Shown here: positions 29,205 to 59,633 of the stretch, piece by piece
Position numbering within the stretch: position 1 is the stretch's first letter
Layout: each line of letters opens with the position of its first letter
DNA from: Actinokineospora baliensis
Lineage (GTDB): Bacteria > Actinomycetota > Actinomycetes > Mycobacteriales > Pseudonocardiaceae
Length of the DNA: 64,000 nucleotides
Assembly: GCF_016907695.1 (NCBI RefSeq)
Contig: NZ_JAFBCK010000001.1
Location: 6,312,001 to 6,376,000 of the forward strand
Direction: 5' to 3'
Position numbers and translations under genes: made by a program
The notes under the pieces: model-generated
Seen by the model: only the letters and a program-made list of their open reading frames with translations
What the model was told of the DNA's origin: nothing
The model's database searches: none

Positions 29205-29349
29205 GCTCGATGCGGTGAACTTGTTTGCGCGGGGCCCCTGCGCCACCCGTGGCAGGACCGCAAAAGCCGGGGCCGAAAAGCATGGCCCTGCAGCGAGGCA
29301 AGGCTACGGATACCGCCACCCCACGCAAAACAAGTCCACCGCATCGAGC
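29205..29349 (+). repeat. Dispersed hairpin element, copy 1
   Basis: 145 bp bounded by about 30-bp imperfect inverted repeats: it starts GCTCGATGCGG and ends CCGCATCGAGC. The inner part keeps GGCAGGACCGCAAA and a GGGGCC...GGCCCTG hairpin found in copies 2 and 3. Arms here carry CTTG / CAAG where the other copies carry CCTG / CAGG, a paired change that keeps the helix. It lies between the 14-bp array and the 3' end of the enoyl-CoA hydratase gene; bases 29350-29435 hold nothing recognisable. Confidence 0.85.
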
Positions 29350-29435
29350 GCTTGGCACCGTCGTCGGCTACGGCTGCGGCCTGCGCGAGCCTGCAGCGAT
29401 CCGGACGAGCCTGCACCAGGCAGCCCGGGTTGGGG

Positions 29436-30260
29436 CTATTGGCCGGTGAACTTCGGTGGCCTGCGCTCCAGGAACGCCTGGACGGCCTCGCCGAGGTCCT
29501 TGCTGGGCAGGAACGCCGCGTTCCAGGCCGCGACGTACCTCAGGCCGTCGGCGACCCGGCGTTCGCGCTCGTGGCCCAGTACGTCCTTGGTGCCCTGGAC
29601 GACCAGCGGCGGGTTGGCGGCGATGTCCGCGGCCAACTGCCTCGCCGCGGCCAGCACGGCGGCCTGGTCGGGGTGCACGTCGTTGACGAGCCCGATGCGC
29701 AGCGCCCGTTCGGCGTCGATGTCCTTGCCGGTGAGGGCGAGCTCGCGCAGGTGCCCTTCGCCGATGACGCCGCCCAGCCGCTGCAGGCTGCCCAGGTCGG
29801 CGACGATGGCGACCTTGACCTCCCGGAGGCTGAACTTGGCGTCGGCGCTGGCGACCCTGATGTCGGCCGCGGCGATCACGTCCAGCCCGGCGCCGATGCA
29901 CCACCCGCTGACTGCGGCGACCACCGGCTTGCGGCACGCGGCCACGGCGGTGACGGCGTCCTGCAGCGCCCGGATCTCGCCGAGGAACCGGGTGCGCGGC
30001 GCGGCGAGGGCTCCGTCGCCGAGCAGGTCACCCCAGGTGGGCATCATCGCGGGCAGGTCGAGCCCGTAGGAGAAGTTGGCGCCGCTACCAGTAAGGACAA
30101 CGGCCCGCACCTCCGGATCCGCGTCCAAGCCGCCGAACACGACCGGCAGCTCCCGCCAGAGGTCCGGCCCCAAGGCGTTGCCCTTACCGGGCCCGAGCAG
30201 GGTTACCTCGGCCACGTGGTCGGCCACCTCGACCGCGACCGACACCAGGTTCTCCGTCAT
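29436..30260 (-). CDS. Enoyl-CoA hydratase/isomerase family protein
   Basis: 274-residue crotonase-fold protein. The oxyanion-hole motifs are VVLTGSGANFSYGLDLP and KPVVAAVSGWCIGAGLDVI. Asp rather than Glu appears in SLREVKVAIVADLG, a pattern also seen in delta3,5-delta2,4-dienoyl-CoA isomerases, so isomerase activity is an alternative to hydratase. The ATG at 30260 has no ribosome site but a TAGTAA hexamer 10 bases ahead, consistent with a nearly leaderless mRNA. Separated from the acyl-CoA synthetase by repeat DNA. Confidence 0.86.
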   Translation of the reverse strand: MTENLVSVAVEVADHVAEVTLLGPGKGNALGPDLWRELPVVFGGLDADPEVRAVVLTGSGANFSYGLDLPAMMPTWGDLLGDGALAAPRTRFLGEIRALQDAVTAVAACRKPVVAAVSGWCIGAGLDVIAAADIRVASADAKFSLREVKVAIVADLGSLQRLGGVIGEGHLRELALTGKDIDAERALRIGLVNDVHPDQAAVLAAARQLAADIAANPPLVVQGTKDVLGHERERRVADGLRYVAAWNAAFLPSKDLGEAVQAFLERRPPKFTGQ

Positions 30261-30388
30261 ACCGGCGACATTACTAGTCGGTAACCAGATCGGACACTTC
30301 CCCCGATCGTGTGGCGTCGTGATCACCTGGGCGCGCCGGGTGCCGGGGTAGGTTCCTGGCGCAAGCCGGGTAGCGAGGAGAACTGCGG

Positions 30389-30553
30389 ATGGCGAACCAG
30401 AGCGTGATGTCCACGCCGATCTTCGACCAGCTGTTGCGCGAGATGACCGAGGGCGCGGCGGCGGCGGAGCAGCAGCAGGACGGCGCGCAGCCGGTCGGCA
30501 CCCCCGCGCCGAAGCCGAGCCAGGGCGGCAGGCGGCGGGCCCGCACCAGCTGA
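30389..30553 (+). CDS. Small hypothetical protein (54 residues)
   Basis: Begins MANQSVMSTPIFDQLLREM, continues through a Glu/Gln/Ala stretch and ends in a basic GGRRRARTS tail. GAGGAG sits 8 bases before the ATG, giving good support for translation. No domain is recognised. It lies between divergent enoyl-CoA hydratase and a same-strand ArsR regulator. Confidence 0.6.
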   Translation: MANQSVMSTPIFDQLLREMTEGAAAAEQQQDGAQPVGTPAPKPSQGGRRRARTS

Positions 30554-30629
30554 GCAGTGGGAACGCTCCCCCGGATGGCGCTCGGCATAGTCATTTGACA
30601 CGGTCGGTCCGCATTCAGAGACTCGCTGT

Positions 30630-31148
30630 ATGGACATGGGGGATACTCGCTCGACCCTGCACGGGATGCGCGCGCTCGCGCACCCGTTGCGGATGCGCAT
30701 CCTGTCGCTGGTGACCGACCGCGCGATGAGCGCGGCCGAGGTCGCCAGGGAGCTCGGCGACAGCCAGCCCAACATCAGCTACCACCTGCGCAAGCTCGCC
30801 GACGCCGGTCTGGTGGAGATCGTGGAGGAGGTGCCGATCCGCGGCGGCATCGCCAAGCGGTACCGGCACATCCCGCCCGCGGTGGCCGCGCCGCGCGACC
30901 CGGGAGACGACCACCTGATCACCTCGGCCCTGGTGGCCGGGCTGGGTGCGCGCACCGCGCGGCGCGCACCGGGCGCCGAGACCGCCACCGACGCCGAGCT
31001 GTGGGTGGACCCGCAGGTGTGGCGCGATACGGTGGCGCACGTGCGGGAGATGAGCCTGCGGCTGCGCGACGCGGCGCAGCCGCCGAGGACACCGGGCACG
31101 GTCCGGGTCAGCACCACGATCTCGATGTTCGAGATGGACCGCTGTTGA
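30630..31148 (+). CDS. ArsR-type winged-helix regulator
   Basis: 172 residues with an N-terminal winged helix (ALAHPLRMRILSLVTDRAMS, then ELGDSQPNISYHLRKLADAG). No metal-binding Cys cluster is evident; the only Cys is the last residue. The C-terminal half is not recognised. It is coupled by a 4-base TTGA overlap to an MFS gene and very likely controls that gene. Confidence 0.84.
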   Translation: MDMGDTRSTLHGMRALAHPLRMRILSLVTDRAMSAAEVARELGDSQPNISYHLRKLADAGLVEIVEEVPIRGGIAKRYRHIPPAVAAPRDPGDDHLITSALVAGLGARTARRAPGAETATDAELWVDPQVWRDTVAHVREMSLRLRDAAQPPRTPGTVRVSTTISMFEMDRC

Positions 31149-32368
31149 CCTCGTCGGCCGGGATGCTCGCCCCGCTGCGCGTGCCGATGTTCCGCAGGCT
31201 GGCCATCGGCCGGATCACCACCTACATCGGCAACGCCATCGCGCCGGTCGCGCTGGCGTTCGCCGTGCTCGACCTGACCGGGTCGGTGGTGGCGCTCGGC
31301 GTGGTGGTCGGCGCGCGGTCCATCGCGAACGTGCTGCTGCTGCTCATGGGCGGCGTCCTGGCCGACCGGTTGCCCCGCGGGGTCATCCTGCAGGGCGCGA
31401 GCCTGGCCGCCGCCGCCTCGCAGGCGGCGACGGCGCTGGCCGTGCTCCTCGACTTCGCCTCGATCCCGCTGCTGGTGGTGCTCAGCGTGGTCAACGGCGC
31501 GGTCGCCGCGGCGTCGCTGCCCGCCGCGTCCGCGCTGACCCCGCAGACGGTGCCGCCCGGCATGATCCGCCAGGCCAACGCCGTGGTCAGGATGGGGATC
31601 AACTCGGCGCTGATCACCGGCGCCTCCCTCGGCGGAATGTTGGCCGCGTTGACCAGCCCCGGCTGGGCGATGGCCGCGACCGCGGCGGTGTTCCTGGTGG
31701 CGTCGTTCTGCTACGCGCGGGTGCGAGCACCGGAGATCGCCGAGAGCGAGCCGACCCGGCCGCTGGCCGACCTGCGCGCGGGCTGGGCCGAGTTCACCGC
31801 CCGCACCTGGGTCTGGTCGATCGTGCTGGCGTTCATGGTGGTCAACGCGGCGATCACCGGCGGCATGCAGGTGCTGGGCCCGTCCATCGCCGACTCCACC
31901 TTCGGCCGACTGGCCTGGGGTTTCATCCTCGGCGCGCAGACCGTCGGCGCCCTGGTCGGCGGCATCGTCGCCAGCCGTTGGCAGCCGCGCCGAGCACTGC
32001 TGTTCGGCACCGCCCTGATCGCGGTCGAGGCCGTGCCGCTGCTGGTCCTGGCGCACGCGCCCGCCGTGATCCCGATGCTCGTGGCCATGTTCGTCGGCGG
32101 CATCGCGATCGAGCAGTTCGGCATCGCCTGGGACGTGTCCCTGCAGGAGAACGTCCCCCAAGACCGCCTGGCCCGCGTCTACTCCTACGACGCCGTCGGC
32201 TCCTTCATCGCCCTCCCGCTCGGCGAGATCGCCGTCGGCCCGCTGGCCATCCACTTCGGCACGGCCGCCACGCTGACCGGTCTCGCCGTGCTCGTCCTGC
32301 TGGCCATCCTGGCCGCTTCACTCACGCCCAGCGTCCGCGGTCTGATCCGCCAACCGAGCCCCGCCTAG
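31145..32368 (+). CDS. MFS transporter
   Basis: About 407 residues with 12 predicted membrane helices; VLADRLPRGVILQG is the loop 2-3 motif. Resembles the enterobactin-exporter/drug-efflux type, substrate unknown. Two starts are possible: TTG at 31145, overlapping the regulator stop, or ATG at 31163 six codons on. Ends with a 4-base convergent overlap (CTAG) with the MarR gene. Confidence 0.83.
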   Translation: MTSSAGMLAPLRVPMFRRLAIGRITTYIGNAIAPVALAFAVLDLTGSVVALGVVVGARSIANVLLLLMGGVLADRLPRGVILQGASLAAAASQAATALAVLLDFASIPLLVVLSVVNGAVAAASLPAASALTPQTVPPGMIRQANAVVRMGINSALITGASLGGMLAALTSPGWAMAATAAVFLVASFCYARVRAPEIAESEPTRPLADLRAGWAEFTARTWVWSIVLAFMVVNAAITGGMQVLGPSIADSTFGRLAWGFILGAQTVGALVGGIVASRWQPRRALLFGTALIAVEAVPLLVLAHAPAVIPMLVAMFVGGIAIEQFGIAWDVSLQENVPQDRLARVYSYDAVGSFIALPLGEIAVGPLAIHFGTAATLTGLAVLVLLAILAASLTPSVRGLIRQPSPA

Positions 32369-32835
32369 CACTGGATTTCGTCCACCGCCGCGCACGGGTT
32401 CGAGCCGTCGTCCTGGCGGGTGGCGAGCTTGCGCAGCAGGTCGCGCAGCAGGTCCCGTTCCTGGGCGGCCAGCGGGGCCAAGACGTGTTCCTCGACGCGG
32501 CGCAGCGCTTCGGCGGTCTCCGCGAAGCGCGCTAATCCGGTCTCTGTGGCGGAAAGCAGGCGAGCGCGGCGATCGGCGGGGTCGGGGCGGCGCTCGACGA
32601 GGCCGGAGCGCTCGAGGTCGTCGATGAGGTAGGTCATCACGGTCTTGTCCAGCCCGAGGCGGTGCGCCAGGACCTGCTGGCTGCACGACTCGCCAGTGGT
32701 GGCGCTGGCGAGGACCTGGTAACCGCGGGGTCCGCCGGGCAGGTCGGCGAGCACCTCCTCGGCCGCGCGCACGTAGCCGCGGAACACCACGCCCAGCGCC
32801 CACCCCAGATCGGACTCGACGGCGGGTGTGGTCAC
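32365..32835 (-). CDS. MarR-family regulator
   Basis: 156 residues with the MarR winged helix: SCSQQVLAHRLGLDKTVMTYLIDDLERSGLVERRPDPADRRAR is the recognition-helix and wing region (quoted in parts: CSQQVLAHRLGLDKTVMTYL; DDLERSGLVERRPDPADRR). It is divergent from the azoreductase gene, with an inverted repeat between them, the standard arrangement for a MarR repressor sensing the substrate of the enzyme. Confidence 0.88.
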   Translation of the reverse strand: MTTPAVESDLGWALGVVFRGYVRAAEEVLADLPGGPRGYQVLASATTGESCSQQVLAHRLGLDKTVMTYLIDDLERSGLVERRPDPADRRARLLSATETGLARFAETAEALRRVEEHVLAPLAAQERDLLRDLLRKLATRQDDGSNPCAAVDEIQC

Positions 32836-32885
32836 CGTCGCATCCTACCGAGGGGACGTGGACAGCGAATCCCTCCGCGTGCAAG

Positions 32886-32906
32886 ATAGTCTGCAGTACA
32901 GACGAT
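32886..32906. promoter_or_regulatory. Likely MarR operator between marR-type and azoreductase genes
   Basis: GTCTG (32889-32893) and CAGAC (32899-32903) form a palindrome around CAGTA, extended by a further AT/AT pair on each side. It sits 22 bp before the azoreductase GTG and 50 bp before the MarR start. Confidence 0.6.
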
Positions 32907-32927
32907 CTGCCCAACGGAGGACTTCCC

Positions 32928-33575
32928 GTGAACCTGTTCCGCCTCGACAGCAGCATCCGCCACACCGGCTCGGTCAGCCGCGCCGTCGCCGACACGGTCA
33001 CCGACAACTGGCTGGCCGCGCACCCGAACGGCACCATCACCCGCCGAGACCTGGTGACCGACGGATTACCCCCCACCGCCTGGACCGACGCCCTGGCCGC
33101 AGCCGCCGTCCCCGCCGACGAGCGCACCCCCGCCCACCTCGCGGCCCTCACCCTGGCCACCGCGATCGCGGATGAGGTAGCCGCCGCCGACTCCCTGGTC
33201 ATCGCGACCCCGCTCTACAACTTCGGCATCTCCCACCACCTCAAGGTCTGGATCGACCTGCTGCTCACCGACCCCCGCTTCGCCCCCGGAACCCAGCCCC
33301 TAGTCGGCAAGCAAGCCGCCCTAGTCATCGCCCGAGGCGGCGGCTACTCCCCCGGCACCCCCCGAGAGGGCTGGGACCACGCCACCCCCTGGCTAACCCG
33401 AATCCTCCAAGACGTCCTGGGCGCACAGGTGTCGGTCATCCCCGCCGAACTGACCCTGGCCACCACGGTTCCGTCGATGGCAGAGCTGATCCCGTTGGCG
33501 GAGCAGTCGGTGAGCGCCGCACACGAACTGGCGGCTAGCACTGGTCGGGCGTTCGCGGAGCGGGTTGCCGTGTAG
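32928..33575 (+). CDS. FMN-dependent NADH azoreductase / quinone reductase
   Basis: 215-residue flavodoxin-fold protein of the AzoR family: LDSSIRHTGSVSRAVAD binds FMN phosphate, and ATPLYNFGISHHLKVWIDLL contains the FMN-contacting PxYNFxxP-like motif. VIARGGGYSPGTPREGWDH fits the substrate side. Such enzymes reduce quinones and azo dyes. GTG at 32928 follows CGGAGG. Divergently paired with a MarR regulator. Confidence 0.9.
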   Translation: MNLFRLDSSIRHTGSVSRAVADTVTDNWLAAHPNGTITRRDLVTDGLPPTAWTDALAAAAVPADERTPAHLAALTLATAIADEVAAADSLVIATPLYNFGISHHLKVWIDLLLTDPRFAPGTQPLVGKQAALVIARGGGYSPGTPREGWDHATPWLTRILQDVLGAQVSVIPAELTLATTVPSMAELIPLAEQSVSAAHELAASTGRAFAERVAV

Positions 33576-33757
33576 GTGCTGTTCCATGGCGACAGCGCCA
33601 CCCACCAAGTCCACAAAGGACCAGTTCGCGCCATGTCACGACTCGGACACGCCGGTAACACAACGGGACCGCACCCCGACTCTTCGCACAGTGAAATAGG
33701 GCAACCGTCCGTGTCCGGACAGTCCCCGAACGCACACGAGCGGAAGGCGTCTCGACC
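33576..33757. promoter_or_regulatory. Upstream region of the HsdR-N gene
   Basis: No gene is visible in these 182 bp. TGTCCGGACA, a perfect 10-bp palindrome, lies at 33712-33721, 37 bp before the ATG, and could be an operator. The ribosome site is weak (GGAAGG, 11 bases before the ATG). Confidence 0.3.
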
Positions 33758-34909
33758 ATGGACATCGCGGAGCGGGCCCAGGCCCTGGCATTGAAGATCC
33801 GCAAGCACAAGGCGACGATCGAGACCGAGGAAGCGACGAAGAACGCCTTCGTGATGCCGTTCATCAGCCTGGTGCTCGGCTACGACGTGTTCAACCCGGC
33901 CGAGGTCATCCCCGAGTTCACCGCCGACGTCGGGACCAAGAAGGGCGAGAAGATCGACTACGCGCTGGTCCACAACGGACAGGTGCAGATCCTGGTCGAG
34001 GCCAAGAAGGTCAACGACCCGCTGCGGGTGGAGCACGCCTCCCAGCTCTTCCGCTACTTCTCGGTGACCAACGCCAGGATCGCGATCCTCACCAACGGCG
34101 AGGTGTACCAGTTCTACACCGACCTCGACGCGCCGAACCGGATGGACTCGAAGCCCTTCCTGGTCCTGGACTTCAGCGACGTCGACACCACCCTGCTGCC
34201 GGAACTGGCGAAGCTGAGCAAGGACTCGTTCGACCTCGACTCCGTGATCAGCGCGGCGGGCGAGCTCAAGTACATCGGCCAGATCAAGCGCGTCCTGGCG
34301 GCGGAGTTCAAGGAGCCCTCCGAGGCCTGGGTCCGCTACTTCACCACCAAGGTCTACGACGGCTCGTTCACCCAACGGGTGCGGGAGCAGTTCACCACCC
34401 TCGTCGACAAGGCGATGCGCCAGTTCCTCAACGAGCAGGTCAACGACCGGCTCAAGAGCGCCCTCGGCGGGCCGGACTCGTTCGTCAGCGTGTCGAACGC
34501 GGCGGAACCCGCGCCCGCCGAGGCGGAGGTCGAGGCACAGGCACCCGCACCGGGCGAGACTGATCTCGTCACGACGGAGGAGGAACTCGAGGGCTACCGG
34601 GTGGTCCGCGCGATCGTCTGCAGCGAGGTCGCCAGCAACCGCGTAGTCGGCCGGGACACGAAGACCTACTTCGGCGTCCTGCTCGACGACAACAACCGCA
34701 AGCCGATCGCCCGGTTGTGGTTCAACCGGACGAAGAAGTACCTCGGCGTGTTCGACGAGAACAAGGTGGAGACGAGGTTCGCGTTGGAGCGGGTGGAGGA
34801 CATCTACCAGTACGCAGACCGGCTGCGGGCGACTGTGGCGCGGTATGGCGCGGGAGTGGTGATTCCGAGTCCCGCTGGGGAGGCGTTGGTGCCTGCGGTG
34901 GCGGAGTGA
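33758..34909 (+). CDS. Orphan type I restriction HsdR N-terminal-domain nuclease-like protein
   Basis: 383 residues. The first 120 carry a PD-(D/E)xK-type nuclease core as in HsdR: TEEATKNAFVMPF (Glu24/25), KIDYALV (Asp67) and VEAKK (Glu81-x-Lys83). A helical middle (about 120-250) and a Pro/Ala/Glu-rich linker lead to a C-terminal domain (about 290-375; RVVGRDTKTYFGVLLDDNN). There is no helicase motor and no HsdM or HsdS nearby, so it is not a working type I system by itself. A defence role is possible but unproven. Bordered on the right by repeat DNA and an insertion sequence. Confidence 0.8.
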   Translation: MDIAERAQALALKIRKHKATIETEEATKNAFVMPFISLVLGYDVFNPAEVIPEFTADVGTKKGEKIDYALVHNGQVQILVEAKKVNDPLRVEHASQLFRYFSVTNARIAILTNGEVYQFYTDLDAPNRMDSKPFLVLDFSDVDTTLLPELAKLSKDSFDLDSVISAAGELKYIGQIKRVLAAEFKEPSEAWVRYFTTKVYDGSFTQRVREQFTTLVDKAMRQFLNEQVNDRLKSALGGPDSFVSVSNAAEPAPAEAEVEAQAPAPGETDLVTTEEELEGYRVVRAIVCSEVASNRVVGRDTKTYFGVLLDDNNRKPIARLWFNRTKKYLGVFDENKVETRFALERVEDIYQYADRLRATVARYGAGVVIPSPAGEALVPAVAE

Positions 34910-35092: not shown

Positions 35093-35238
35093 GCTCGATG
35101 TGGTGGACCTGTTTTGCGTGGGGCCCCTACGACAGCCGTGGCAGGACCGCAAAGCAGGGGCCGAAAAGCGTGGCCCTGTCCGCGCAGGAACGCTACGACT
35201 GCCGCTCCCCCACACAAAACAGGTCCACCCCATCGAGC
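35093..35238 (+). repeat. Dispersed hairpin element, copy 2
   Basis: 146 bp, starting GCTCGATGTGG and ending CCCATCGAGC, with imperfect 30-bp inverted ends containing GGACCTGTTTTG and CAAAACAGGTCC. The inside matches copy 3 closely (GGCAGGACCGCAAAGCAGGG) and copy 1 more distantly. Same orientation as the other two. Located between the convergent HsdR-N and IS/MFS genes. Confidence 0.87.
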
Positions 35239-35242
35239 AGTT

Positions 35243-35600
35243 GGCACCAGCGACTTCCGGGAGCGGTGGCTGGGTTCGGTGGGCTGACTCGGTGGGTTGG
35301 GTTTGGGTGGCTGACTCGGTGGGTTGAGGTGGCACCGGCGCTTCCGGGAGCGGTGGCTGGGTTCGGTGGGCTGGCTCGGTGGGTTGAGGTGGCACCGGCG
35401 GCTTCTGGGAGCGGTTATGGGGCTGGCGGGGTTGGCTCGGTGGGTTGGGTTGGGCGGGCTGGCTCGGTGGGTTGAGGTGGCACCGGCGGCTTCTGGGAGC
35501 GGTTATGGGGCTGGCGGGGCTGGCCCGGTGGGCTGGGGTGGCACCAGCGACTTCTGGGAGCGGTGGCGGGGTTGGCTCGGAGAGCGAACGGGCTGGCTCG
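35243..35600 (+). repeat. Degenerate GGCACC-led tandem array after copy 2
   Basis: Five units begin with GGCACC(A/G)GCG at 35243, 35331, 35391, 35479 and 35540, so spacing alternates 88, 60, 88 and 61 bp. Each unit has CTTC(C/T)GGGAGCGGT right after the start and then shorter GGTGGGTTG / GGCTGGC(T/C)CGG repeats. All frames are open because of base composition; no protein is credible. Ends just before the insertion sequence. Confidence 0.75.
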
Positions 35601-35675
35601 GGAAGTGTTCTGCCCCAAGGGTCTAGGGCGTGGTGAGGAGCCGCGCGGTTTCCGGACAGGGGATTAACTGTCTAT

Positions 35676-36539
35676 TCAAGCGGCGATTTGTTGGTTCTTG
35701 TGTTCGATGTATACCTCGTGCGGTGGGCGGTAGCCTATCGCTGAGTGAAGTCGTCGGCGATTATACCAGAACTCGATGTAGCGAGTGATGTGCTGCCGGG
35801 CTTCGTCTCGGGTGGAGTAAGCCGTCCGGTTGACGCATTCGTTTTTGAGTGTGCCGAAGAACGATTCGGCCATCGCGTTGTCGAAACAGATTCCGGTTCG
35901 CCCTGCTGATTGCTTCAACCGGAGGCTGGTGAGGACGTTGTGGTACTCGGTGGACATGTAATTGCTGCCGCGGTCGCTGTGGAATATCGCACCGTCGGCG
36001 AGTGGGCGGTTTCGGGCCGCGTTGCGGATAGCGCGGCTGATGAGCGGTGTCTGGTAGTTGTCGTCCATCGCGTAGCCGATCACTTCTTTCGTGCAGCAAT
36101 CCAGCACGGTGGCCAGGTAAAGCCAGCCTTCCATCGTGGGAACGTAGGTGATGTCGCCGACCAGCTTGCGTCCCGGCGCGGGCGCGGTGAAGTCACGGCC
36201 GACCAGGTCGCCCACCGGCGCGGCCGCCGCGGTGGTCAGCCCGAACCGCCGGGGTCTTGGCTGGCAGGGAACCAGCCCCAGTTCACGCATGAGGTGCCGG
36301 ACCAGTTCAACACCCACGCACACGCCTGCCCGCCGCAACTGGGCATGGACCCGCCGGTGGCCGTAAGTCGAGTCCGAGGCCTCGAACGCGTCCCGGATAA
36401 ACGCTTTCAGCTCCTCTCGCCGTCGCGCGGTGGCCGATTCCGCCCGGCCGCGCCATTCGTAGTAGCCGGACCTGGAAACGTCGAGCAGTCGGCACATGAA
36501 CAGGACTGGATACGCGTACTTCGCAGGTTCAAGTCGCAT
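35676..36539 (-). CDS. IS3-family transposase, OrfB (DDE integrase domain)
   Basis: 287 residues counted from the ATG at 36539; in the element it is normally made as an OrfAB fusion. A helical HTH_21 segment (LLDVSRSGYYEWRGR; STYGHRRVHAQLRRAG) precedes the rve core with DDE residues in LVGDITYVPT, IFHSDRGSNYMS and DNAMAESFFGTLKNE. The frame is open upstream to the slip site at 36599 (reading VVSKYEFIET just before the Met), as expected for the fusion. Performs cut-out and insertion of the element. Confidence 0.93.
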   Translation of the reverse strand: MRLEPAKYAYPVLFMCRLLDVSRSGYYEWRGRAESATARRREELKAFIRDAFEASDSTYGHRRVHAQLRRAGVCVGVELVRHLMRELGLVPCQPRPRRFGLTTAAAAPVGDLVGRDFTAPAPGRKLVGDITYVPTMEGWLYLATVLDCCTKEVIGYAMDDNYQTPLISRAIRNAARNRPLADGAIFHSDRGSNYMSTEYHNVLTSLRLKQSAGRTGICFDNAMAESFFGTLKNECVNRTAYSTRDEARQHITRYIEFWYNRRRLHSAIGYRPPHEVYIEHKNQQIAA

Positions 36540-36565
36540 CGTTTCGATGAACTCGTACTTGCTGA

Positions 36566-36868
36566 CTACTCGGCATCCTTCGCGAAGTACGCTGCGGCTT
36601 TTTTCAGGAAAGACACTTCCATCTCGAGTTCGCGGTTACGGCGTTCCAACTCTCGTAGTCGCGCTCGTTCGTCCGTTGCCAACGGCTCCGACACGGCGAC
36701 GGCCGAGTCCGCGCCTTGTTCCCGCTCATAGCTCCGCACCCATACACGCAGTGTCTCCGAGTTCATATTCAACTCGCGCGCCGTCTCGGCGATCGGCCGT
36801 TTCGACCGCAACGCCATCTGAACTGCTTCCTCACGAAACTCCGGCGAGTACGGACTCCGATGGGCCAC
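36566..36868 (-). CDS. IS3-family transposase, OrfA (helix-turn-helix)
   Basis: 100 residues. An N-terminal HTH (YSPEFREEAVQMALRSKRPI; NMNSETLRVWVRSYE) binds the ends, and a leucine-zipper coiled coil (ERARLRELERRNRELEMEVS) follows. GTG at 36868 is preferred because GAGGGAG lies 5-6 bases upstream; an ATG at 36898 is also in frame. Overlaps the end of the MFS reading frame. Confidence 0.9.
   Translation of the reverse strand: MAHRSPYSPEFREEAVQMALRSKRPIAETARELNMNSETLRVWVRSYEREQGADSAVAVSEPLATDERARLRELERRNRELEMEVSFLKKAAAYFAKDAE
36599..36604 (-). promoter_or_regulatory. Programmed -1 frameshift site of the IS3 element
   Basis: On the minus strand, a run of six A followed by GCC lies at codons Lys-Lys-Ala near the end of orfA. 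Slipping back one base here joins orfA to the orfB frame without any stop before the orfB Met, the standard way IS3 elements make OrfAB. Confidence 0.65.
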
Positions 36869-36878
36869 GTGCACTCCC

Positions 36879-38138
36879 TCAACTTCCCGACAGGACAATC
36901 TTACTGGGTTCCTGTCCGGAAACCTCGAGGCCCCTCATGGGGCTGGTGGTGCGTTGGCGTGGGAGGAGGAAGGGGGTGGCGAGGAGTAGGAGTCCGGCTA
37001 GGGCGATCGCCGTTCGGGGGGTGGTGTGGTGGGCTAGGTAGCCCCACAGGAGGGTGGTTGCGGCGATGGTGAGGCTGCTGCTGATGGACCACGCCGTAAG
37101 CAGGCGGGTGTGGTGGGTGGGGGTGGTGTGGGTCAGGCGGTAGGCGGCGAGGGTGGGGGTGTGGATGCTGATGGAGATGATCAGGGCGAACTGGGTCAAT
37201 AGGACGGTGACCAGGCCGGGGAGGCCGGGTTGGGTGAAGGCCAGGCCCAGGGGGCATAGGGCGCGCAGGGTTCCGGTCGTGTTCAAGACGATCGCCGGGG
37301 TGTAGTGGGAAGCTAGGCGAGGGGCTAGGCGGGAGCCGAGTAGGCCTGCTGTGCAGGGGAGGGCGAAAGCCAGGGTGTACTGCCAGGCGGGGAAGTTCAG
37401 GTGGGTGAGCATGAGGACGGCCACTTGGGGTTCCGCGGCCATGATGAGGGCGTTGACCGCGAGGGTGTTGGTGAAGTGGCGGCGCAGGGGGCGGTTGGCG
37501 AAGATGTGGCGCCAGCCTTCGATGAGGTCGGACCAGCGGCGAGACACCTTGCTGGGCCGCGGTGGTTCTGGGGTGCGGATCGCGGAGATTCCCAAGGCGG
37601 ACAACAGGTAGCTCACCGCGTCCAGGGTGGTTGTGGCCACTGGGCCCAAGAATGACACTGCGGCCGCGCCGACGGGTGGGCCGATCACGGTGGCGGACCA
37701 GGTGGTGGATTCGAGGCGGCTGGTGGCCAGGAGGAGCCGGTCGGCGGGGATGAGGGTTCGCAGGTACGCGCCGCTGGCTGCGGCGGAGGCGATCTTGGCA
37801 GTGGCGGTGGTCGTGGCGACGATCAGCAGGTGGGGGAAGGTGAGGGCGCCTAGGGCGTAAGCCACGGGGATGGTGAGGAGGGCGGCGAAGCGGGTGAGGT
37901 CCATTGTGATCATCACGGGTCGTTTGGCGCGGCCCTCCATCCACGGGCCCAGGGGGACGGCCAGCAGGGCACCGATCACGAGGCCGGACGACGCCAGCGC
38001 GGCCACCTCGGTCGAGGTGGCGTGGAGCACCGTGATGGCGATGATCGAGAACGCACCGAAGGCGAGGCCGGTGCCGTACGCGCTCACGGCGTAGGCGGCC
38101 CACAGCCAGCGGAAGGACCGGCCGAGCGCGGAAGTCAT
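36879..38138 (-). CDS. MFS transporter with 3' end altered by the IS
   Basis: 419 residues as now read, with 12 membrane helices and the LGPWMEGRAKRPVMI loop. The last about 15 residues (LEVSGQEPSKIVLSGS) are encoded by the insertion sequence end, which supplies the stop codon; the native C terminus has been lost or replaced after residue about 403. All membrane helices are intact, so it may still work. ATG at 38138. Divergent from a LysR regulator that probably controls it; the substrate is unknown. Confidence 0.82.
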   Translation of the reverse strand: MTSALGRSFRWLWAAYAVSAYGTGLAFGAFSIIAITVLHATSTEVAALASSGLVIGALLAVPLGPWMEGRAKRPVMITMDLTRFAALLTIPVAYALGALTFPHLLIVATTTATAKIASAAASGAYLRTLIPADRLLLATSRLESTTWSATVIGPPVGAAAVSFLGPVATTTLDAVSYLLSALGISAIRTPEPPRPSKVSRRWSDLIEGWRHIFANRPLRRHFTNTLAVNALIMAAEPQVAVLMLTHLNFPAWQYTLAFALPCTAGLLGSRLAPRLASHYTPAIVLNTTGTLRALCPLGLAFTQPGLPGLVTVLLTQFALIISISIHTPTLAAYRLTHTTPTHHTRLLTAWSISSSLTIAATTLLWGYLAHHTTPRTAIALAGLLLLATPFLLPRQRTTSPMRGLEVSGQEPSKIVLSGS

Positions 38139-38195
38139 GCGGGCCAGCCAAACCGATGACCGGGGGCAGGCACCAACAACGGGTCGAGCGGCGTG

Positions 38196-38214
38196 CCACA
38201 ACCGGGCGTTGTGG
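38196..38214. promoter_or_regulatory. LysR-type operator candidate
   Basis: CCACAAC and GTTGTGG form a perfect 7-bp inverted repeat with a 5-base centre in the 91-bp gap between the MFS and LysR genes, 15 bp before the LysR start. Placement fits autoregulation plus control of the divergent transporter. Confidence 0.55.
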
Positions 38215-49982: not shown

Positions 49983-49987
49983 AGGGG

Positions 49988-53589: not shown

Positions 53590-53616
53590 GCGGCCCGCCC
53601 ACCCGGCGGGCGCGGG

Positions 53617-54087
53617 TCAGTGCGCGATCAGGGCGCGGCGGGTGGCGCGCAGGATGCCCTCGGTGATCTCGGCGCTCGAGGGCCTGCGGGTGCGCCCCGC
53701 GTAGCCGACGGGGCTCAGCACGACGTGCTGGGTGGGGTGGTCCGGCAGGGCCGTTGTGGAGGGGCGGTCGTGGGCCTCGACGACAGGGGCACCCGGGGCC
53801 AGCAGCGGCTCCACCGCGCGGAGGGCGGGGGCGAGGGTGTCGTCGGGCAGCCAGGTGATGAGCAGCTCGGCGGGGTTGTCGATGATGCGGGCGGTCCGGC
53901 TCGCCAGCAGCTGGGGCTTGGACCAGTCGACCTCCACCCAGGTTGCCCTGCCGCAGCCGCTGTGGTGATCGGCCGCCAGCGGCGCGTAGTGCCTGCACGG
54001 CAGCACCACGTGCCACCCGTTGGCCACCAACCGCTCCGCGCACCCGGTGAGCATCCCGGTCCCGCCCATGACCAATGCCGTTCTCAT
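53617..54087 (-). CDS. Short Rossmann-fold (NAD(P)-binding) protein
   Basis: 156 residues beginning MRTALVMGGTGMLTGCAERL, a nucleotide-binding GxxGxxxG-like turn after the first strand. There is no SDR catalytic YxxxK. The C-terminal half (VVLSPVGYAGRTRRPSSAEI) is like that of small SDR-related proteins often called short-chain dehydrogenase. Follows bluB by 20 bp on the same strand and may be its partner, for example in supplying reduced flavin, but that is conjecture. Confidence 0.65.
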   Translation of the reverse strand: MRTALVMGGTGMLTGCAERLVANGWHVVLPCRHYAPLAADHHSGCGRATWVEVDWSKPQLLASRTARIIDNPAELLITWLPDDTLAPALRAVEPLLAPGAPVVEAHDRPSTTALPDHPTQHVVLSPVGYAGRTRRPSSAEITEGILRATRRALIAH

Positions 54088-54107
54088 CGCCACGCCGCCT
54101 CTCCGTG

Positions 54108-54743
54108 TCAGGCGGTGCCGTCCCCGCGGGTGTAGCGCTCGAAATGGGTCACCTGCTCCACCGGGATCCGGCTCCGCCAACCGTGTCGTTCCAGGTCCGG
54201 CACCTCCTGCCGCCGCTCGACCGGACCCAGGCACAGCCAGGCGACCGGGCGCACCGACGCGGGGATGTCCAGGAGGGACCGGAGGTGGTCCTCCTGGTAA
54301 AAACTAACCCAACCCACCCCCAAGTTCTCCGCCGTCGCGGCCAGCCAGAGGTTCTGGATCGCCAAGCAGACGGAGTAGAGCCCGGCGTCGGCGATCGCGT
54401 GCCTGCCCAGCACCGCGGGCCCACCCCTGGCCGGGTCGTAGGTGACCACGATGGACAGGGTCGACTCGAGGACGCCGTCGACCTTGACCCGCTCGAAGGT
54501 CGCCGCCCGCTCCCCCGTGAGCCCCGCGGCGAACCGCGCCCGCTCCTGCTGCACGTGCTCGTAAAACCCAGCCCTCGTCGCGGCGTCCCGAACCACCACG
54601 AAGTCCCACGGCTGCGACATCCCCACACTCGGCGCCGCGTGCGCCGCCCCCAACACCCGCCCCAACACCTCGTCGTCGACCGCCGCACCGGTGAACTCGG
54701 CCCGCACATCCCGCCGCATCGCAATGGCCTCGTAGACATCCAC
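54108..54743 (-). CDS. bluB: 5,6-dimethylbenzimidazole synthase
   Basis: 211-residue nitroreductase-fold protein of the BluB type, which breaks down FMNH2 with oxygen to make the lower ligand of cobalamin. Seen: MRRDVRAEFTG, HAAPSVGMSQPWDFVVV (FMN-binding loop with the group-specific SVGMSQPW) and AIQNLWLAATAENLGVGWVS. Full length. No cobalamin riboswitch is visible upstream; instead there is an 8-bp tandem array 205 bp before the start. Confidence 0.92.
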   Translation of the reverse strand: MDVYEAIAMRRDVRAEFTGAAVDDEVLGRVLGAAHAAPSVGMSQPWDFVVVRDAATRAGFYEHVQQERARFAAGLTGERAATFERVKVDGVLESTLSIVVTYDPARGGPAVLGRHAIADAGLYSVCLAIQNLWLAATAENLGVGWVSFYQEDHLRSLLDIPASVRPVAWLCLGPVERRQEVPDLERHGWRSRIPVEQVTHFERYTRGDGTA

Positions 54744-54947
54744 CCAGCCACCCTATGTCACCCGAACGAGCGGACTCGGTTCCCGAGTGGACAGTCTCCC
54801 CGCAGGCCCACATCCCGCCTGGCGCTTTCCCCGGCCACCTCGCTTGCGCCTTCGTGGCCGCCTTACGGGGCAGCCAGTCCGCCTCCCCCATCTAGCCGCG
54901 CGGCCCCGACTCAACCGCGCGTCCCGGTCTCCACTCGCCCCTGAGGC

Positions 54948-55177
54948 GCCACGCCGCCACGCCGCCACGCCGCCACGCCGCCACGCCGCCACGCCGCCAC
55001 GCCGCCACGCCGCCACGCCGCCACGCCGCCACGCCGCCACGCCGCCACGCCGCCACGCCGCCACGCCGCCACGCCGCCACGCCGCCACGCCGCCACGCCG
55101 CCACGCCGCCACGCCGCCACGCCGCCACGCCGCCACGCCGCCACGCCGCCACGCCGCCACGCCGCCACGCCGCCACG
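54948..55177. repeat. Perfect 8-bp tandem array, about 29 copies
   Basis: 230 bp made of uninterrupted CGCCACGC-type octamers (CCGCCACG read cyclically). No interior variant was seen. Because 8 is not a multiple of 3, every frame encodes the same eight-residue repeat, so open frames here mean nothing. It lies between bluB (start 205 bp away) and the 3' end of the DUF3592 gene. Confidence 0.95.
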
Positions 55178-55473
55178 AGTGTCCAACCGGCACGCCCAGC
55201 CCCGTCAACGCCCTCAACCAGGTGAACTTCCTGCCGAGCTCCGTCCACTCCCCAGGTCGCTCTCCGTCCACAACGCCCCGAGTTGTCCACAGCTCTTCGC
55301 GCCGCCTTCCCGCGCCCCCAGACCCCGATAGACTGGCACCGGGGTCGGCCCCCGGAGAGGGTGGGGACTGGGACCCGCTCACCGCGCGGGCGCGCGAAGA
55401 GGGGGCGTGCGCGTAAGAGGGCCGTGCGTGCAAGGGGGGCGTGCGTGTAAGAGAGGCGCGTGCGCAAGAGGGA
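55178..55473. other. Gene-free stretch with short degenerate repeats
   Basis: No gene is supported. TTGTCCACAG at 55280-55290 and several similar words occur. Bases 55405-55470 contain about four imperfect 17-20-bp copies of a GCGTGCG(C/T)GTAAGAGG-type word just after the DUF3592 stop (on the minus strand), perhaps decaying tandem repeats. Confidence 0.4.
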
Positions 55474-56178
55474 TCAGTTGGGGGTGGAGAGTTCTCGGCC
55501 GGGGATGGGGCGGCGGTTGGGGTAGACGAGGACGGCGCCGCCTGCGGCGCCGCCGAGGAGGACTCGGCCGGGGTGGGGGCGGGAGCGGCCGGTGTCGATG
55601 ATGACCTCGGTGTGCGGGGCCACGTCCAGGCAGACGCGGACCAGGGGGGCGTCGGCGGTGGCGGTGCCGGGGCGCCAGCCGTGGCGGCGGGTGGCGATTA
55701 GGCGGCGGGACCAGCGGGCGATGAGGATGGTGCCCGCGGCGGTGAGGCCGACGGCGGCCATGGTGGTGGCGAGTTCGACCGCGGTGAGGGCGAAGGGCGG
55801 GTCGGTCCCGGCTTGGGCGGTGGCGAGGCGCTCGGGGTCGGCGGGGTCGTAGGTGAGGGTGATCGGGTCGCCTGCCCGGATCGGCGGGTCGGGGACCAGC
55901 AGGGTCAGGGTGCGCACCCGCTCCTGGCCGTCCACGGCGAACCGGACGTCGATCGAGCCGGACGTGTGCCGGGTGCGGTCCACGACGGCGACAACCACGC
56001 CCGGCACGCGGACGCCGTCGGTGAGCAGGGTGGCGCGCTGGTCGTCTATGGCCGCGTCGGTCAGGCAGGCTGCGACGAACAGCAGCACCCCGGCGGCGAA
56101 CAGCGCCACCGACCTCAGGAGCGCTCGGCGCACCGCGGCGGTCGCCGTCGCCGCGCCGAGCGAGCGTTGCCCTTCCAT
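55474..56178 (-). CDS. DUF3592-type membrane protein
   Basis: 234 residues. Two membrane helices (VALFAAGVLLFVAACLTDAA and TTMAAVGLTAAGTILIARWS) flank an extracytoplasmic beta domain of the DUF3592 kind (VRVPGVVVAVVDR; DPITLTYDPADPERLATA). The C-terminal cytosolic part is basic then proline-rich. ATG at 56178 follows GGGGAGGGGGC. It lies 33 bp after polA on the same strand and is probably read from the same mRNA. Function unknown. Confidence 0.8.
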   Translation of the reverse strand: MEGQRSLGAATATAAVRRALLRSVALFAAGVLLFVAACLTDAAIDDQRATLLTDGVRVPGVVVAVVDRTRHTSGSIDVRFAVDGQERVRTLTLLVPDPPIRAGDPITLTYDPADPERLATAQAGTDPPFALTAVELATTMAAVGLTAAGTILIARWSRRLIATRRHGWRPGTATADAPLVRVCLDVAPHTEVIIDTGRSRPHPGRVLLGGAAGGAVLVYPNRRPIPGRELSTPN

Positions 56179-56210
56179 GCGCCCCCTCCCCGATCTGGGA
56201 GGATCATGGA

Positions 56211-58925
56211 CTAGTGGGCGGCCTGGTTCCAGGACCGGCCGAACCCGACCGACACGTCCAGCGGCACCCGCAGGTGGAACGCGGCCGCCATCTGCGCCCG
56301 GACCAGGGTCTCGGCCCGCTCCCGCTCCCCCTCGGCGACCTCGAGCACGAGTTCGTCGTGGACCTGCAGCAGCATCCGGGTGCGCAGGTCGGCGGCGCCG
56401 AGCTCGCGGTGCACGTTGAGCATGGCGACCTTGATGATGTCGGCCGCGCTGCCCTGGATCGGGGCGTTGAGCGCCATCCGCTCGGCCATCTCCCGGCGCT
56501 GGCGGTTGTCGCTGGTCAGGTCGGGCAGGTAGCGGCGGCGACCGAAGATCGTCTCGGTGTAGCCGTCCTTGCGCGCCTTGGCCACCACCTCGTGCAGGTA
56601 GTCGCGGACCCCGCCGAAGCCCTGGAAGTAGTCGTCCATCAGGCCGCGGGCCTCCTCGGTGGAGATCCGCAGCTGCTGCGAGAGCCCGTAGGCCGAGAGC
56701 CCGTACGCCAGGCCGTAGTTCATCGCCTTGATCTTGGCGCGCTGCTCCTGCGACACCGAGGTCGGCTCGACGCCGAACACGCGGGCGGCGGTGGCGGCGT
56801 GGAAGTCGAACCCGGAGTTGAACGCCTCGATCAGCGCCGCGTCCTCCGACAGGTGCGCCATGATCCGCATCTCGATCTGGCTGTAGTCCGCGGTGAGCAG
56901 CTCGGCGAAGTCGCCGCCGACCACGAACGCATCGCGGATGGTGCGGCCCGCCTCGGTGCGGATCGGGATGTTCTGCAGGTTCGGCTCGGTGGAGGACAAC
57001 CGGCCGGTGGCGGCGATGGTCTGGTTGAACGTGGTGTGGATGCGCCCGTCCTCGGACACCGACTTGATCAGGCCCTCGACGGTGACCCGGAGCCTGGTCG
57101 CGTCCCGGTGCTCGAGCATGTGCGCCAGGAACGGGTGCTCGGTCTGCTCGTAGAGCGTGGTCAGCGCCTCGGCGTCGGTGGTGTAGCCGGTCTTGGTGCG
57201 CTTGGTCTTGGGCATCTGCAGCTCGTCGAACAGCACGACCTGCAGCTGCTTGGGCGACCCGAGGTTGATCTCCTTGCCGATCACGTCGAACGCGGCCCGC
57301 TCGGCGTCGCGCACCCTGGCGGCGAACTCCGACTCCAGGACCGACAGCCGCTCGGTGTCGACCGCGATGCCGACCGCCTCCAGCTCGGCGAGCACCCGCA
57401 GCAGCGGCAGCTCCATGTCCGCCAGCAGCGGCGCCTGCCCGGTCTCGGCGAGCGCCGCGTCCAGCGCGTCGGCGAGCTCGGCGATGGCCCTGGCGCGCAG
57501 GATCTCCCCCGCGGCCAGCTTGCGCTCGTCCTCGCCCTCGTCGTCGAGCAGGGACAGCTGCTGCTCGCCGTCGGCGTCCTCGACGCGCAGCTCGCGCTGC
57601 AGGTAGCGCAGGACGAGGTCGTCGAGGTTGAAGGTGCGCTGACCGGGGCGGACCAGGTACGCGGCCAGCGCGGTGTCGGTGATCAGACCACCGACCGCCC
57701 AGCCGCGGTGGCGCACGGCGTGCAGCGAGCGCTTGACGTCGTGGGCCAGCTTGGGCGCGGCCGGGTCGGCCAGCCAGTCCCGGAAGGCCTTCTCGTCGTC
57801 CTCGGTCAGGGTGGTGACGTCGACGTAGAGGCCCTCGCCGACCGCGGTGGCCAGCGCGACCGACTTCAGCTCGACGGCCTGGCCGGACACGCCGGTGGCG
57901 GTCTCGCGGAAGGACAGTCCGATCCTGGTGCCCCTCGGCGCGTGCGTGGCCAACCAGCCGGGCAGCTCCCCCGCCGCGACGGCGCCGCCGCTGACCTCGA
58001 AACCCTCCTCGGCCTCGGGTTCGGCGGTCGACAGGGTCGCGAAGAGCCGGTCGCGCAGCACCCGGAACTCCAGCTCGTCGAACAGCCGGTGCACGGCGTC
58101 GCGGTCCCAGTCGCGCACCGCGAGGTCCTCGGGCACGACCTCCAGCGGCACGTCGCGGACCAGCTCGGTGAGCTGCCGGTTGAGCAGCACGTTGGCCAGG
58201 TTCGCCCGCAGCAGCTCCCCCGCCTTGCCCTTGACCTCGTCGACCCGGTCCACCAGGTCGCCGAGCGAGCCGAACTGCTGGATCCACTTGGTGATGGTCT
58301 TCTCGCCGACGCCCTTGATGTTGGGCAGGTTGTCGCTGGGGTCCCCGCGCAGCGCCGCGAAGTCCGGGTACTGCGCCGGGGTCAGGCCGTACTTGTCCTG
58401 CACCAGCGCCGGGGTGTAGCGGGCCAGCTCGGAGACGCCCTTCACCGGGTAGAGCACGGTGACCTCGTCGGTGACCAACTGCAGCGCGTCGCGGTCGCCG
58501 GTGCAGATGGCCACGTGGTACCCGGCGGCGGTCGCCTGCGTGGTGAGCGTGGCGATGAGGTCGTCAGCCTCGAAGTTGTCCTTGGCCAGCTTGGGGATGT
58601 TCAGCGTCTCGAGGACGTCCTCGATCAGGCTGACCTGCCCCTTGAACTCGTCCGGGCTGGCGCTGCGGTTGGCCTTGTACTCGGGGTAGTGCTCGGTGCG
58701 GAAGGTCTTGCGGGAGACGTCGAAGCAGACCGCGAGGTGGGTGGGCGCCTCGTCGCGCAGCAGGTTGATCAGCATCGAGGTGAAGCCGTAGACGGCGTTG
58801 GTGTGCTGACCGGTGCCGGTCTGGAAGTTCTCCTTGGGCAGCGCGAAGAACGCCCGGTACGCCATGGAGTGGCCGTCGATGAGCAGCAGCCGGGGGGTGG
58901 TACGGGTCTCAGTCTTCGCAGGCAC
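56211..58925 (-). CDS. polA: DNA polymerase I
   Basis: 904 residues: an N-terminal 5'-3' exonuclease (LLLIDGHSMAYRAFFALP; GDRDALQLVTDEV; ALRGDPSDNLPNIKGVGEK), a central 3'-5' exonuclease fold whose catalytic acidic residues appear missing (as usual in actinobacteria), and a family A polymerase domain with motif A LLTADYSQIEMRIMAHLSED, motif B RAKIKAMNYGLAYG, and motif C LQVHDELVLEVAE. It fills gaps after repair and Okazaki processing. The gap of 43 bp to the divergent thioesterase holds both promoters. Confidence 0.97.
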   Translation of the reverse strand: MPAKTETRTTPRLLLIDGHSMAYRAFFALPKENFQTGTGQHTNAVYGFTSMLINLLRDEAPTHLAVCFDVSRKTFRTEHYPEYKANRSASPDEFKGQVSLIEDVLETLNIPKLAKDNFEADDLIATLTTQATAAGYHVAICTGDRDALQLVTDEVTVLYPVKGVSELARYTPALVQDKYGLTPAQYPDFAALRGDPSDNLPNIKGVGEKTITKWIQQFGSLGDLVDRVDEVKGKAGELLRANLANVLLNRQLTELVRDVPLEVVPEDLAVRDWDRDAVHRLFDELEFRVLRDRLFATLSTAEPEAEEGFEVSGGAVAAGELPGWLATHAPRGTRIGLSFRETATGVSGQAVELKSVALATAVGEGLYVDVTTLTEDDEKAFRDWLADPAAPKLAHDVKRSLHAVRHRGWAVGGLITDTALAAYLVRPGQRTFNLDDLVLRYLQRELRVEDADGEQQLSLLDDEGEDERKLAAGEILRARAIAELADALDAALAETGQAPLLADMELPLLRVLAELEAVGIAVDTERLSVLESEFAARVRDAERAAFDVIGKEINLGSPKQLQVVLFDELQMPKTKRTKTGYTTDAEALTTLYEQTEHPFLAHMLEHRDATRLRVTVEGLIKSVSEDGRIHTTFNQTIAATGRLSSTEPNLQNIPIRTEAGRTIRDAFVVGGDFAELLTADYSQIEMRIMAHLSEDAALIEAFNSGFDFHAATAARVFGVEPTSVSQEQRAKIKAMNYGLAYGLSAYGLSQQLRISTEEARGLMDDYFQGFGGVRDYLHEVVAKARKDGYTETIFGRRRYLPDLTSDNRQRREMAERMALNAPIQGSAADIIKVAMLNVHRELGAADLRTRMLLQVHDELVLEVAEGERERAETLVRAQMAAAFHLRVPLDVSVGFGRSWNQAAH

Positions 58926-58968
58926 GGTGCGAGTCTAGGGTGGGGCACCGACACCCATCGGAGGACCC

Positions 58969-59409
58969 ATGAGCGGGATCGACCGCGACAAGCTGCCCGG
59001 GGTACGCCCGGACTTCGCCGACCAGTTCCTGCCGGACAAGCTGGGCATCGATGTCACCGACTGGACCCCGACCCGGCTGGTGGGGACCATGCCGGTGAAG
59101 GGCAACCTGCAGCCCTACGGCCTGCTGCACGGCGGCGCGAACGCGGTCCTGGCCGAGACGCTCGGGTCGATCGCCGCCGTCCTCAACTCCCCCTCCGGCA
59201 AACTCGCCGTCGGCCTGGAACTGTCCTGCACGCACCACCGGGCGGTCCGCTCCGGGGTCGTCACCGCGGTCTGCACACCGCTGCACATCGGCCGCACCAC
59301 ATCCACCTTCGAGATCGTCATCACCGACGACGAGGACCGGCGGACCTGTACGGCGCGCCTCACGTGCGTGTCCATCGCCAAGGCGCCGGGAGATCCTGGT
59401 CCTGCCTGA
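58969..59409 (+). CDS. PaaI-type hotdog thioesterase
   Basis: 146 residues of the hotdog fold. The PaaI/4HBT signature NLQPYGLLHGGANAVLAETL includes the catalytic-region HGG; CTHHRAVRSGVVTAVCTPLH follows. Such enzymes hydrolyse aromatic or short acyl-CoAs, for example 1,4-dihydroxy-2-naphthoyl-CoA in menaquinone synthesis. ATG preceded by CGGAGGA 5-6 bases upstream. Divergent from polA. Confidence 0.9.
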   Translation: MSGIDRDKLPGVRPDFADQFLPDKLGIDVTDWTPTRLVGTMPVKGNLQPYGLLHGGANAVLAETLGSIAAVLNSPSGKLAVGLELSCTHHRAVRSGVVTAVCTPLHIGRTTSTFEIVITDDEDRRTCTARLTCVSIAKAPGDPGPA

Positions 59410-59488
59410 CGCGGGTCGTTTCGGCTTCGCCGTTGGATCTTCGGCTCGTCGCTTCGCGCCTTGCATCGGATCCGCGATTTACGTGCAG

Positions 59489-59633
59489 GCTCGATGCGGT
59501 GGACCTGTTTTGCGTGGGGCCCCTACGACAGCCGTGGCAGGACCGCAAAGCAGGGGCCGAAAAGCATGGCCCTGCAGCGAGGCGACGCTACGGCTGCCGT
59601 CCCCCCACACAAAACAGGTCCACCCCATCGAGC
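59489..59633 (+). repeat. Dispersed hairpin element, copy 3
   Basis: 145 bp, starting GCTCGATGCGG and ending CCCATCGAGC, with the same 30-bp inverted ends and inside as copy 2. Its left flank (GATCCGCGATTT at 59469-59480) and right flank (TGGCACCAGCGACTTCCG) also match copy 2, so the shared unit is about 230 bp. It lies between the convergent thioesterase and livF genes. Confidence 0.88.

Follow-up and report, generated by a model that had tools for sequence, protein, structure and literature searches.

A high-copy intergenic repeat family in Actinokineospora with a covarying fold that appears to be selected on a single strand

Palindromic repeats that occur in many copies in bacterial genomes tend to be dismissed as junk in decay or as what transposases have left behind. 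Several such families are close in kind to the repeat described below. REPINs are miniature non-autonomous repeats, predicted to form hairpins in single-stranded DNA or mRNA, that occur extragenically in more than 100 copies (PMC3116915). Repetitive extragenic palindromes (REPs) lie between convergent and unidirectional genes, with G-T pairing in their stems having been used as evidence of transcription (PMC3733652), and they serve as targets of specific insertion sequences (PMC1525189). The ERIC elements of enterobacteria (also IRU or RU-1) are palindromic intergenic repeats of 127 bp that form an RNA hairpin and have an orientation-dependent effect on RNA, and the NEMIS or Correia elements of Neisseria (~107 and 155 bp) are intergenic, have inverted ends, and give transcripts proposed to form stem-loops that are cut by RNase III (PMC2229807). 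Miniature inverted-repeat transposable elements (MITEs) are small and intergenic, carry terminal inverted repeats, and have transcripts predicted to fold into stable stem-loops; the families described contain many truncated copies, with QMITE2 being full length in only 10 of 78 cases (PMC10969869). Here, we describe a repeat family, termed rods, from the actinomycete Actinokineospora baliensis, where three copies of about 145 bp lie in a window of 64,000 nucleotides (the whole stretch of DNA analysed; contig NZ_JAFBCK010000001.1, positions 6,312,001 to 6,376,000).

Fold, covariation and strand polarity of the rod

The rod keeps its fold while nearly all of its sequence changes, which appears to reflect selection on a folded single strand, either RNA or single-stranded DNA. 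The alignment that carries this result holds 51 sequences (85 copies were collected, 64 remained after removal of near-duplicates, and 51 were chosen by hand, more distant copies being left out) and was made with MAFFT, without being fitted to structure. Among its 9,496 column pairs, 13 covary at E<0.05. Every one of these belongs to the fold as predicted: 12 are pairs of the outer stem and one is a pair of the second stem. The null for this test was our own and tree-based, with inferred substitutions replayed on the tree at random columns; R-scape had been proposed for the purpose in an initial annotation of the window, which took the structure to be kept by selection rather than to be a mere set of decaying duplicates, and the covariation within the fold supports that claim. 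In addition, 96.0% of structure cells are paired as opposed to 73.4% in shuffles, and 32 of the 36 pairs have changed on both sides somewhere. None of 500 shuffles reaches any of five pairing measures, and slid partners are only 35-46% paired. Identity of the 5′ arm is 0.825 within genomes (60 pairs) and 0.605 between them (1,215 pairs).

The imperfect pairs point to one strand in particular. A transition in a single arm leaves one strand with a G·U pair and the complementary strand with A·C; selection acting on the duplex only predicts equal counts of the two. On the rod strand, which is the minus strand in the window, 41 G·U and 6 A·C genome-position events were counted over the 51 sequences (p = 1.8e-7), with two misaligned divergent sequences (L249 and L246) giving five of the six A·C events and four of the 41 G·U events. 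Counted as cells over 101 copies, the wobbles comprise 346 G·U and 9 A·C. In 39 of the 51 sequences, moreover, the fold of this strand is more stable than that of the complement. Rod orientation was set by the models; the AGGGG motif, as an independent marker, fixes the same strand: 62 of 74 other-genome copies carry it on the assigned strand and none on the opposite one. A mutational bias of the transcribed strand could mimic part of this polarity, but not the double changes.

The family core is a rod of ~115-150 nt that consists, from the outside inward, of an outer stem, an asymmetric loop, a second stem, loop bases, and an inner hairpin. The outer stem, P1, measures ~31 bp in Actinokineospora and ends in GGGG/CCCC, and the asymmetric loop that follows it holds the conserved AGGGG. 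The loop bases are of a UAARCU type, conserved in part and found with a permissive pattern in 50 of the 74 copies from other genomes. The second stem was also recovered free of any alignment: its longest run has a median of 11 bp in 69 of the 74 other-genome sequences, 68 of which have a run of at least 6, whereas with the interior shuffled the median longest run is 6 and only 38 have a run of at least 6. Matches listed from other genera share this architecture, with an outer stem that by eye is shorter, and some of them carry variant motifs such as AGAGGCTCC or AAGGGCCCC. For the 5′ strand of the inner hairpin (e.g., in the rod at 59489-59633), two alternative 3′ partners seem available, which might amount to a conformational switch.

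Within the window, the covariance model matches exactly three copies and nothing else, and the minus strand scores higher for each (Table 1). Their termini are GCTCGATG/CATCGAGC, their arms span ~31 bp, and the conserved inner sequence is GGCAGGACCGCAAA; the left arm of copy 1 lacks one T. All three window copies fold far better than shuffled sequence: z ranges from -7.2 to -10.6, and in none of five tests did any of the 200 shuffles match the real sequence. The coordinates, ends, arms of about 30 bp, conserved inside, common orientation, and placement of two copies between convergent gene ends given in the initial annotation are all borne out. Its paired change, CTTG/CAAG in place of CCTG/CAGG, is real as well, and over 101 copies this pair is U-A in 53, C-G in 46, G-C in one, and unpaired in one. 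That account was right but far too small, as it held neither the copy number nor the flanking modules, the strand polarity of the wobbles, or the insertion sequence.

Genes were predicted with our own codon-usage caller. Copy 1 is sense relative to both neighbouring genes. The convergent gene next to copy 2 encodes the transposase of an insertion sequence, which is itself lodged in the copy 2 island. A tandem array with a unit of ~15 bp (GGCGGCTCCCGGGCG) adjoins copy 1 at 29100-29204.

Table 1. Rod copies in the window, their parts, and the features around them
Feature	Position	Strand	Remarks
Rod copy 1	29205..29349	-	Covariance model 141.1 bits; flanked by two minus-strand genes
Rod copy 2	35093..35238	-	Covariance model 165.7 bits; between convergent genes
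Rod copy 3	59489..59633	-	Covariance model 170.1 bits; between convergent genes
Copy 3, P1 5′ strand	59603..59633	-	Ends in GGGG; from alignment positions
Copy 3, P1 3′ strand	59489..59519	-	Starts CCCC; from alignment positions
Copy 3, AGGGG bulge	59520..59524	-	Adjoins CCCC; from alignment and motif count
Copy 3, nearest module A unit (CCACTGGACACTCGGAAGTCGCTGGTGCCA...)	59634..59666	-	More units to ~59960 (approximate)
Copy 3, downstream module B (CTGCACGTAAATCGCGGATCC...)	59440..59488	-	Small hairpin; boundary approximate
Copy 2, upstream module A array	35239..35633	-	Extends to insertion sequence; boundary approximate
Insertion sequence, IS3-type, 1,304 bp	35634..36937	-	Transposase 35679-36539; inside copy 2 island; TGG on both sides
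AMP-binding enzyme (beside copy 1)	27189-28895	-	
Enoyl-CoA hydratase (beside copy 1)	29436-30260	-	
Thioesterase (beside copy 3)	58969-59409	+	
ABC ATPase (beside copy 3)	60376-61089	-	

Copy number, distribution and placement

The rod is far more numerous than the window alone would indicate. In 98 evenly spaced 20-kb stretches of the A. baliensis genome (1.96 Mb or 26% of it, two positions beside the window being left out), 48 full-length copies were found beyond the window, all matching model positions 1-145, from which ~188 copies are estimated by extrapolation for the 7.68-Mb genome. BLAST with one copy (E<=0.01) over this sample and the window returned no pieces outside full copies. Two models were used for other genomes, R1 being built from 101 copies and R2 from 51 diverse copies. 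Within the genus, R1 matches 15 of 16 Actinokineospora genomes, A. baliensis included, with 1 to at least 150 matches per genome; the 8.1-Mb congeneric genome G005 yielded no copy with R1 or R2. In the family, R2 has matches in 48 of the 390 genomes, representing 11 of its 46 genera, and class-wide it matches 2 of 394 sampled genomes, both of them Actinokineospora. These genome counts are lower bounds, based on scoring the best 150, 26 or 8 candidates per genome, and the family- and class-wide searches used stricter filters that may miss weak relatives outside the family. The initial annotation had called for a search of related genomes and had held that few copies elsewhere, or independent changes of the arms, would speak against it; what was found is a repeat present across the genus and significant covariation that lies entirely in the fold.

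A scan of genome contigs for the exact core gave at least 120 loci. In the 67 that come from Actinokineospora, a rod with both ends was recognised by pattern in 61 and not in the remaining six (one at a contig end); among the matches listed, those in other organisms looked accidental, lying in sequence of another kind. BLAST of plasmids and phages with a window copy gave no match. No Rfam family matches the rods in a scan of the window, and no match above the gathering score was obtained for ten loci searched at E up to 1. The matches below threshold comprise one miRNA hairpin model, matched twice over one rod (on both strands), and cobalamin elsewhere. No published description of the rod family was found in the literature searched. 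The initial annotation had likewise placed the element in no family familiar to it. The rod repeats are a new family, distinct from REPIN, ERIC, and NEMIS, being set apart from the latter two by their descriptions. The sole Rfam match in the window is a glycine riboswitch (RF00504) at 19143-19244 on the minus strand, with 67.3 bits.

Rods occupy the spaces between genes. None of 51 copies (sample and window) overlaps a predicted gene; 43 lie in 30 intergenic regions and eight at the edges of stretches. The 30 occupied regions divide into 17 convergent, 11 co-directional, and two divergent, as compared with 69, 217, and 108, respectively, among 394 regions of at least 200 bp, so that convergent regions are enriched (Fisher p = 4e-7) and divergent ones depleted (p = 0.005); this comparison is rough, since the occupied regions are long partly because they contain islands. 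Among the 150 copies listed for A. baliensis, 75 are on the plus and 75 on the minus strand, with no strand bias by chromosome arm; the signal from DnaA-box counts and GC skew was too weak to place the origin. Neighbours within 1.5 kb among the listed copies comprise 25 same-strand, 10 diverging, and one converging pair, and 31 of the 36 adjacent start-to-start distances are 237-336 bp. Close opposite-strand pairs in A. baliensis mostly diverge, unlike those of two other genomes (G002 and G006), where facing rod pairs lie ~120-135 bp apart (L186, L197, L202, and L223). The three facing pairs in G002 combine different subfamilies in a BIME-like arrangement.

Mosaic islands and the insertion sequence within them

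The rod is the centre of a mosaic island with directional modules at its flanks. Module A is composed of units that end in TGGTGCCA and are often in tandem; of its 43 matches near rods, 40 are upstream of the rod and share its strand, and the other three are downstream. Module B contains a small hairpin, and all 32 of its matches near rods are downstream and on the rod's strand. Away from rods are 17 of 60 module A matches and 73 of 105 matches to the module B pattern. A degenerate arrangement, with the rod reversed relative to its module, was also seen. The flanking modules differ by species, others having their own. Module A is in itself a dispersed, partly tandem repeat with units of ~60-90 bp, found away from rods too (e.g., 59634-59960).

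Islands show turnover among species. Comparison of 129 copies from other genomes with the A. baliensis sample yielded eight testable sites, six of which are empty and two occupied, one of the latter probably being a paralogous polyketide synthase match. At the clearest filled/empty site, where the two flanking genes and their A. diospyrosa counterparts are 95 and 98% identical, an insertion of ~580 bp made up of a rod and modules interrupts sequence that otherwise runs on without a break to either side. A query with joined flanks found no full-length empty site in the A. baliensis genome among the best 40 of 188 candidates.

The transposase beside copy 2 has rve and HTH_21 domains, and its insertion sequence is of the IS3 type. 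A. baliensis has seven copies of this insertion sequence (L385-L391), each of which is located within a rod island or next to one. For five of them a listed rod is found at no more than 1.3 kb, in zones that make up 4.0% of the genome (binomial p = 1.9e-6); the sixth lies within module A, its end 28 bases away from a further rod, and the seventh interrupts a rod. They are flanked by duplications of 3-4 bases, namely TGG, CAAC, CTGG and GGAC (twice each), and GCT, which also forms the opening three bases of a rod, and in two copies (L389 and L391) the target bases are inside or at the very end of a rod. A relative with 61% identity in A. globicatena also ends inside a rod arm. Since its ends are unlike those of the rod, the insertion sequence looks like a visitor of the islands rather than the mover of the rod.

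Explanations and comparison with known systems

We give a probability of about one half to the explanation that the rod is a lineage-specific selfish element, non-autonomous and propagated together with its flanking modules through its folded strand. The folded single strand (minus in the window) would be recognised by a trans-acting factor, either as RNA read through from neighbouring genes or as single-stranded DNA, and the rod with its modules would spread via this strand, any chromosomal effects, such as mRNA 3′-end processing, being by-products. Recognition of the fold would leave the arms free to change if both sides change together. A further and more speculative step, which we hold to be rather unlikely in full, is that the replication signal is the fold and not the sequence, and that the trans-acting enzyme is neither a Y1 HUH transposase nor a reverse transcriptase. 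If true, a fold-recognising enzyme lets each species rewrite its arms and homogenise its hundred-odd copies.

Several observations count against a selfish element of this kind. No gene family recurs beside the copies except the insertion sequence, whose ends differ from those of the rod; the other recurrent proteins are ordinary genes, and no mobility enzyme could be linked from the proteins beside copies in other genera. Y1_Tnp (PF01797) was found in two of the 16 genus genomes (G001 and G012), A. baliensis not among them, with five of 14 controls positive, and no rod lies within 1.5 kb of either of the two Y1 genes. RVT_1 (PF00078) was found in three of the 16, again not in A. baliensis, and six fetched RVT_1 loci hold no rod. 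The one insertion observed is the ~580-bp island and not a bare rod. Three species seem to have retained a rod at one site, flanked by a HAD-like gene and leuC (L005, L190, and L248), with the rods (positions ~1500-1665) at similar distances and in the same sense but with differing arm sequences. In co-directional gaps, 195 de-duplicated copies from all genomes gave 41 in sense and 22 in antisense (p = 0.023, from loci fetched because they hold copies), a mild excess which agrees better with a cis-acting RNA role than with pure selfishness. Nor is decay of rods absent: A. baliensis has one interrupted rod and two short stem remnants with the interior deleted, near full copies (L388 1304-1378 and L390 3048-3095), and at least four copies with a lost or altered arm occur in other Actinokineospora species.

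A strong rival is a role for the host in mRNA 3′ ends, in which the rod, read through as cis-acting RNA, protects or cleaves 3′ ends or insulates convergent genes. This is a genuine possibility, though a lesser one than spread by the folded strand. The RNA-type polarity of the wobbles, the convergent enrichment (17 of 30 as against 69 of 394 regions), the sense excess, and the seemingly retained HAD-like/leuC site all suit such a role, and comparable effects have been proposed for the transcripts of ERIC, NEMIS, and REP. It is less well served by the unbiased A. baliensis sample, with nine sense and eight antisense copies in co-directional gaps, by the emptiness of six of the eight testable orthologous sites, and by G005, a congener that does without copies under either model.

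The remaining explanations are less probable. The initial annotation had offered a MITE, a REP-like element, or a structured RNA, of which a structured RNA (or single-stranded DNA) fits best. A standard MITE, descended from an insertion sequence and mobilised by a DDE transposase through recognition of the terminal repeats as duplex DNA, would agree with terminal inverted repeats, small size, many intergenic copies, and mostly intact ends, but is unlikely: the terminal sequences vary between subfamilies even within one genome, the filled/empty insertion includes the modules, duplex recognition would not predict the wobble polarity, no lone ends occur in the 1.96-Mb sample and the window, no target duplication is evident by eye in the flanks listed, and the sole insertion sequence recurring beside rods is unrelated to them at its ends and is flanked by 3-4-base duplications of its own. 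Template switching in replication can produce paired changes in long inverted repeats, and such palindrome correction could have kept the arms complementary with no structural selection. This too is improbable, as correction of this kind should not leave the unpaired AGGGG and loop bases conserved, nor produce G·U without A·C on one strand. Mobilisation as single-stranded DNA by a RAYT (Y1) transposase, as for a REP or REPIN, accounts for the high copy number, the convergent placement, the hairpin of more than 100 nt, the regular spacing of close neighbours, and the use of the rod as an insertion-sequence target, so that the REP-like option holds in part; a Y1 gene was, however, undetected in 13 of the 15 rod-bearing genomes of the genus, the host included, and those that were found have no rod nearby, which makes this the least probable of the explanations. 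A reading as integron attC sites was dropped, since the rod ends do not have the appearance of attC core sites.

With hundreds of natural copies in fifteen congeneric genomes, the rod offers strong statistical evidence of selection and a defined folded strand, and the question of whether a repeat acts as RNA, single-stranded DNA, or duplex DNA becomes directly testable in Actinokineospora laboratory strains. It is an RNA-family candidate for Rfam and a fresh case of an insertion sequence homing on a repeat, and G005, lacking copies, provides a natural comparison for finding the cognate enzyme.

Set beside known systems, the rod resembles REPINs and REPs in its high copy number, extragenic hairpin, convergent placement, and role as an insertion-sequence target. 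It differs from the REP/RAYT system in that its host has no detected Y1 transposase, and from REPs in its second stem, AGGGG loop, and directional flanking modules; single REPs measure 20-40 bp, while the unit is 145 bp in the window, and neither the GTAG nor the CGTC terminal tag of REPs is visible by eye in the rod ends listed. The rod is similar to ERIC in size and in being palindromic and intergenic, but its arms are rewritten between species with significant covariation and its internal motifs are conserved, features that set it apart from ERIC as described, and ERIC also occurs inside genes, whereas rods overlap no predicted gene. With NEMIS it shares inverted ends and intergenic location; filled and empty NEMIS/Correia sites show insertion of approximately the element itself, whereas the rod's one clear case is a larger island. 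Compared with MITE families, all 48 sampled rods are full length, though damaged copies exist elsewhere, and the rod ends are not conserved in sequence. The argument from G-T pairing to transcription has already been used for REPs (PMC3733652); what is new here is the family, together with the size of the covariation and polarity signals.

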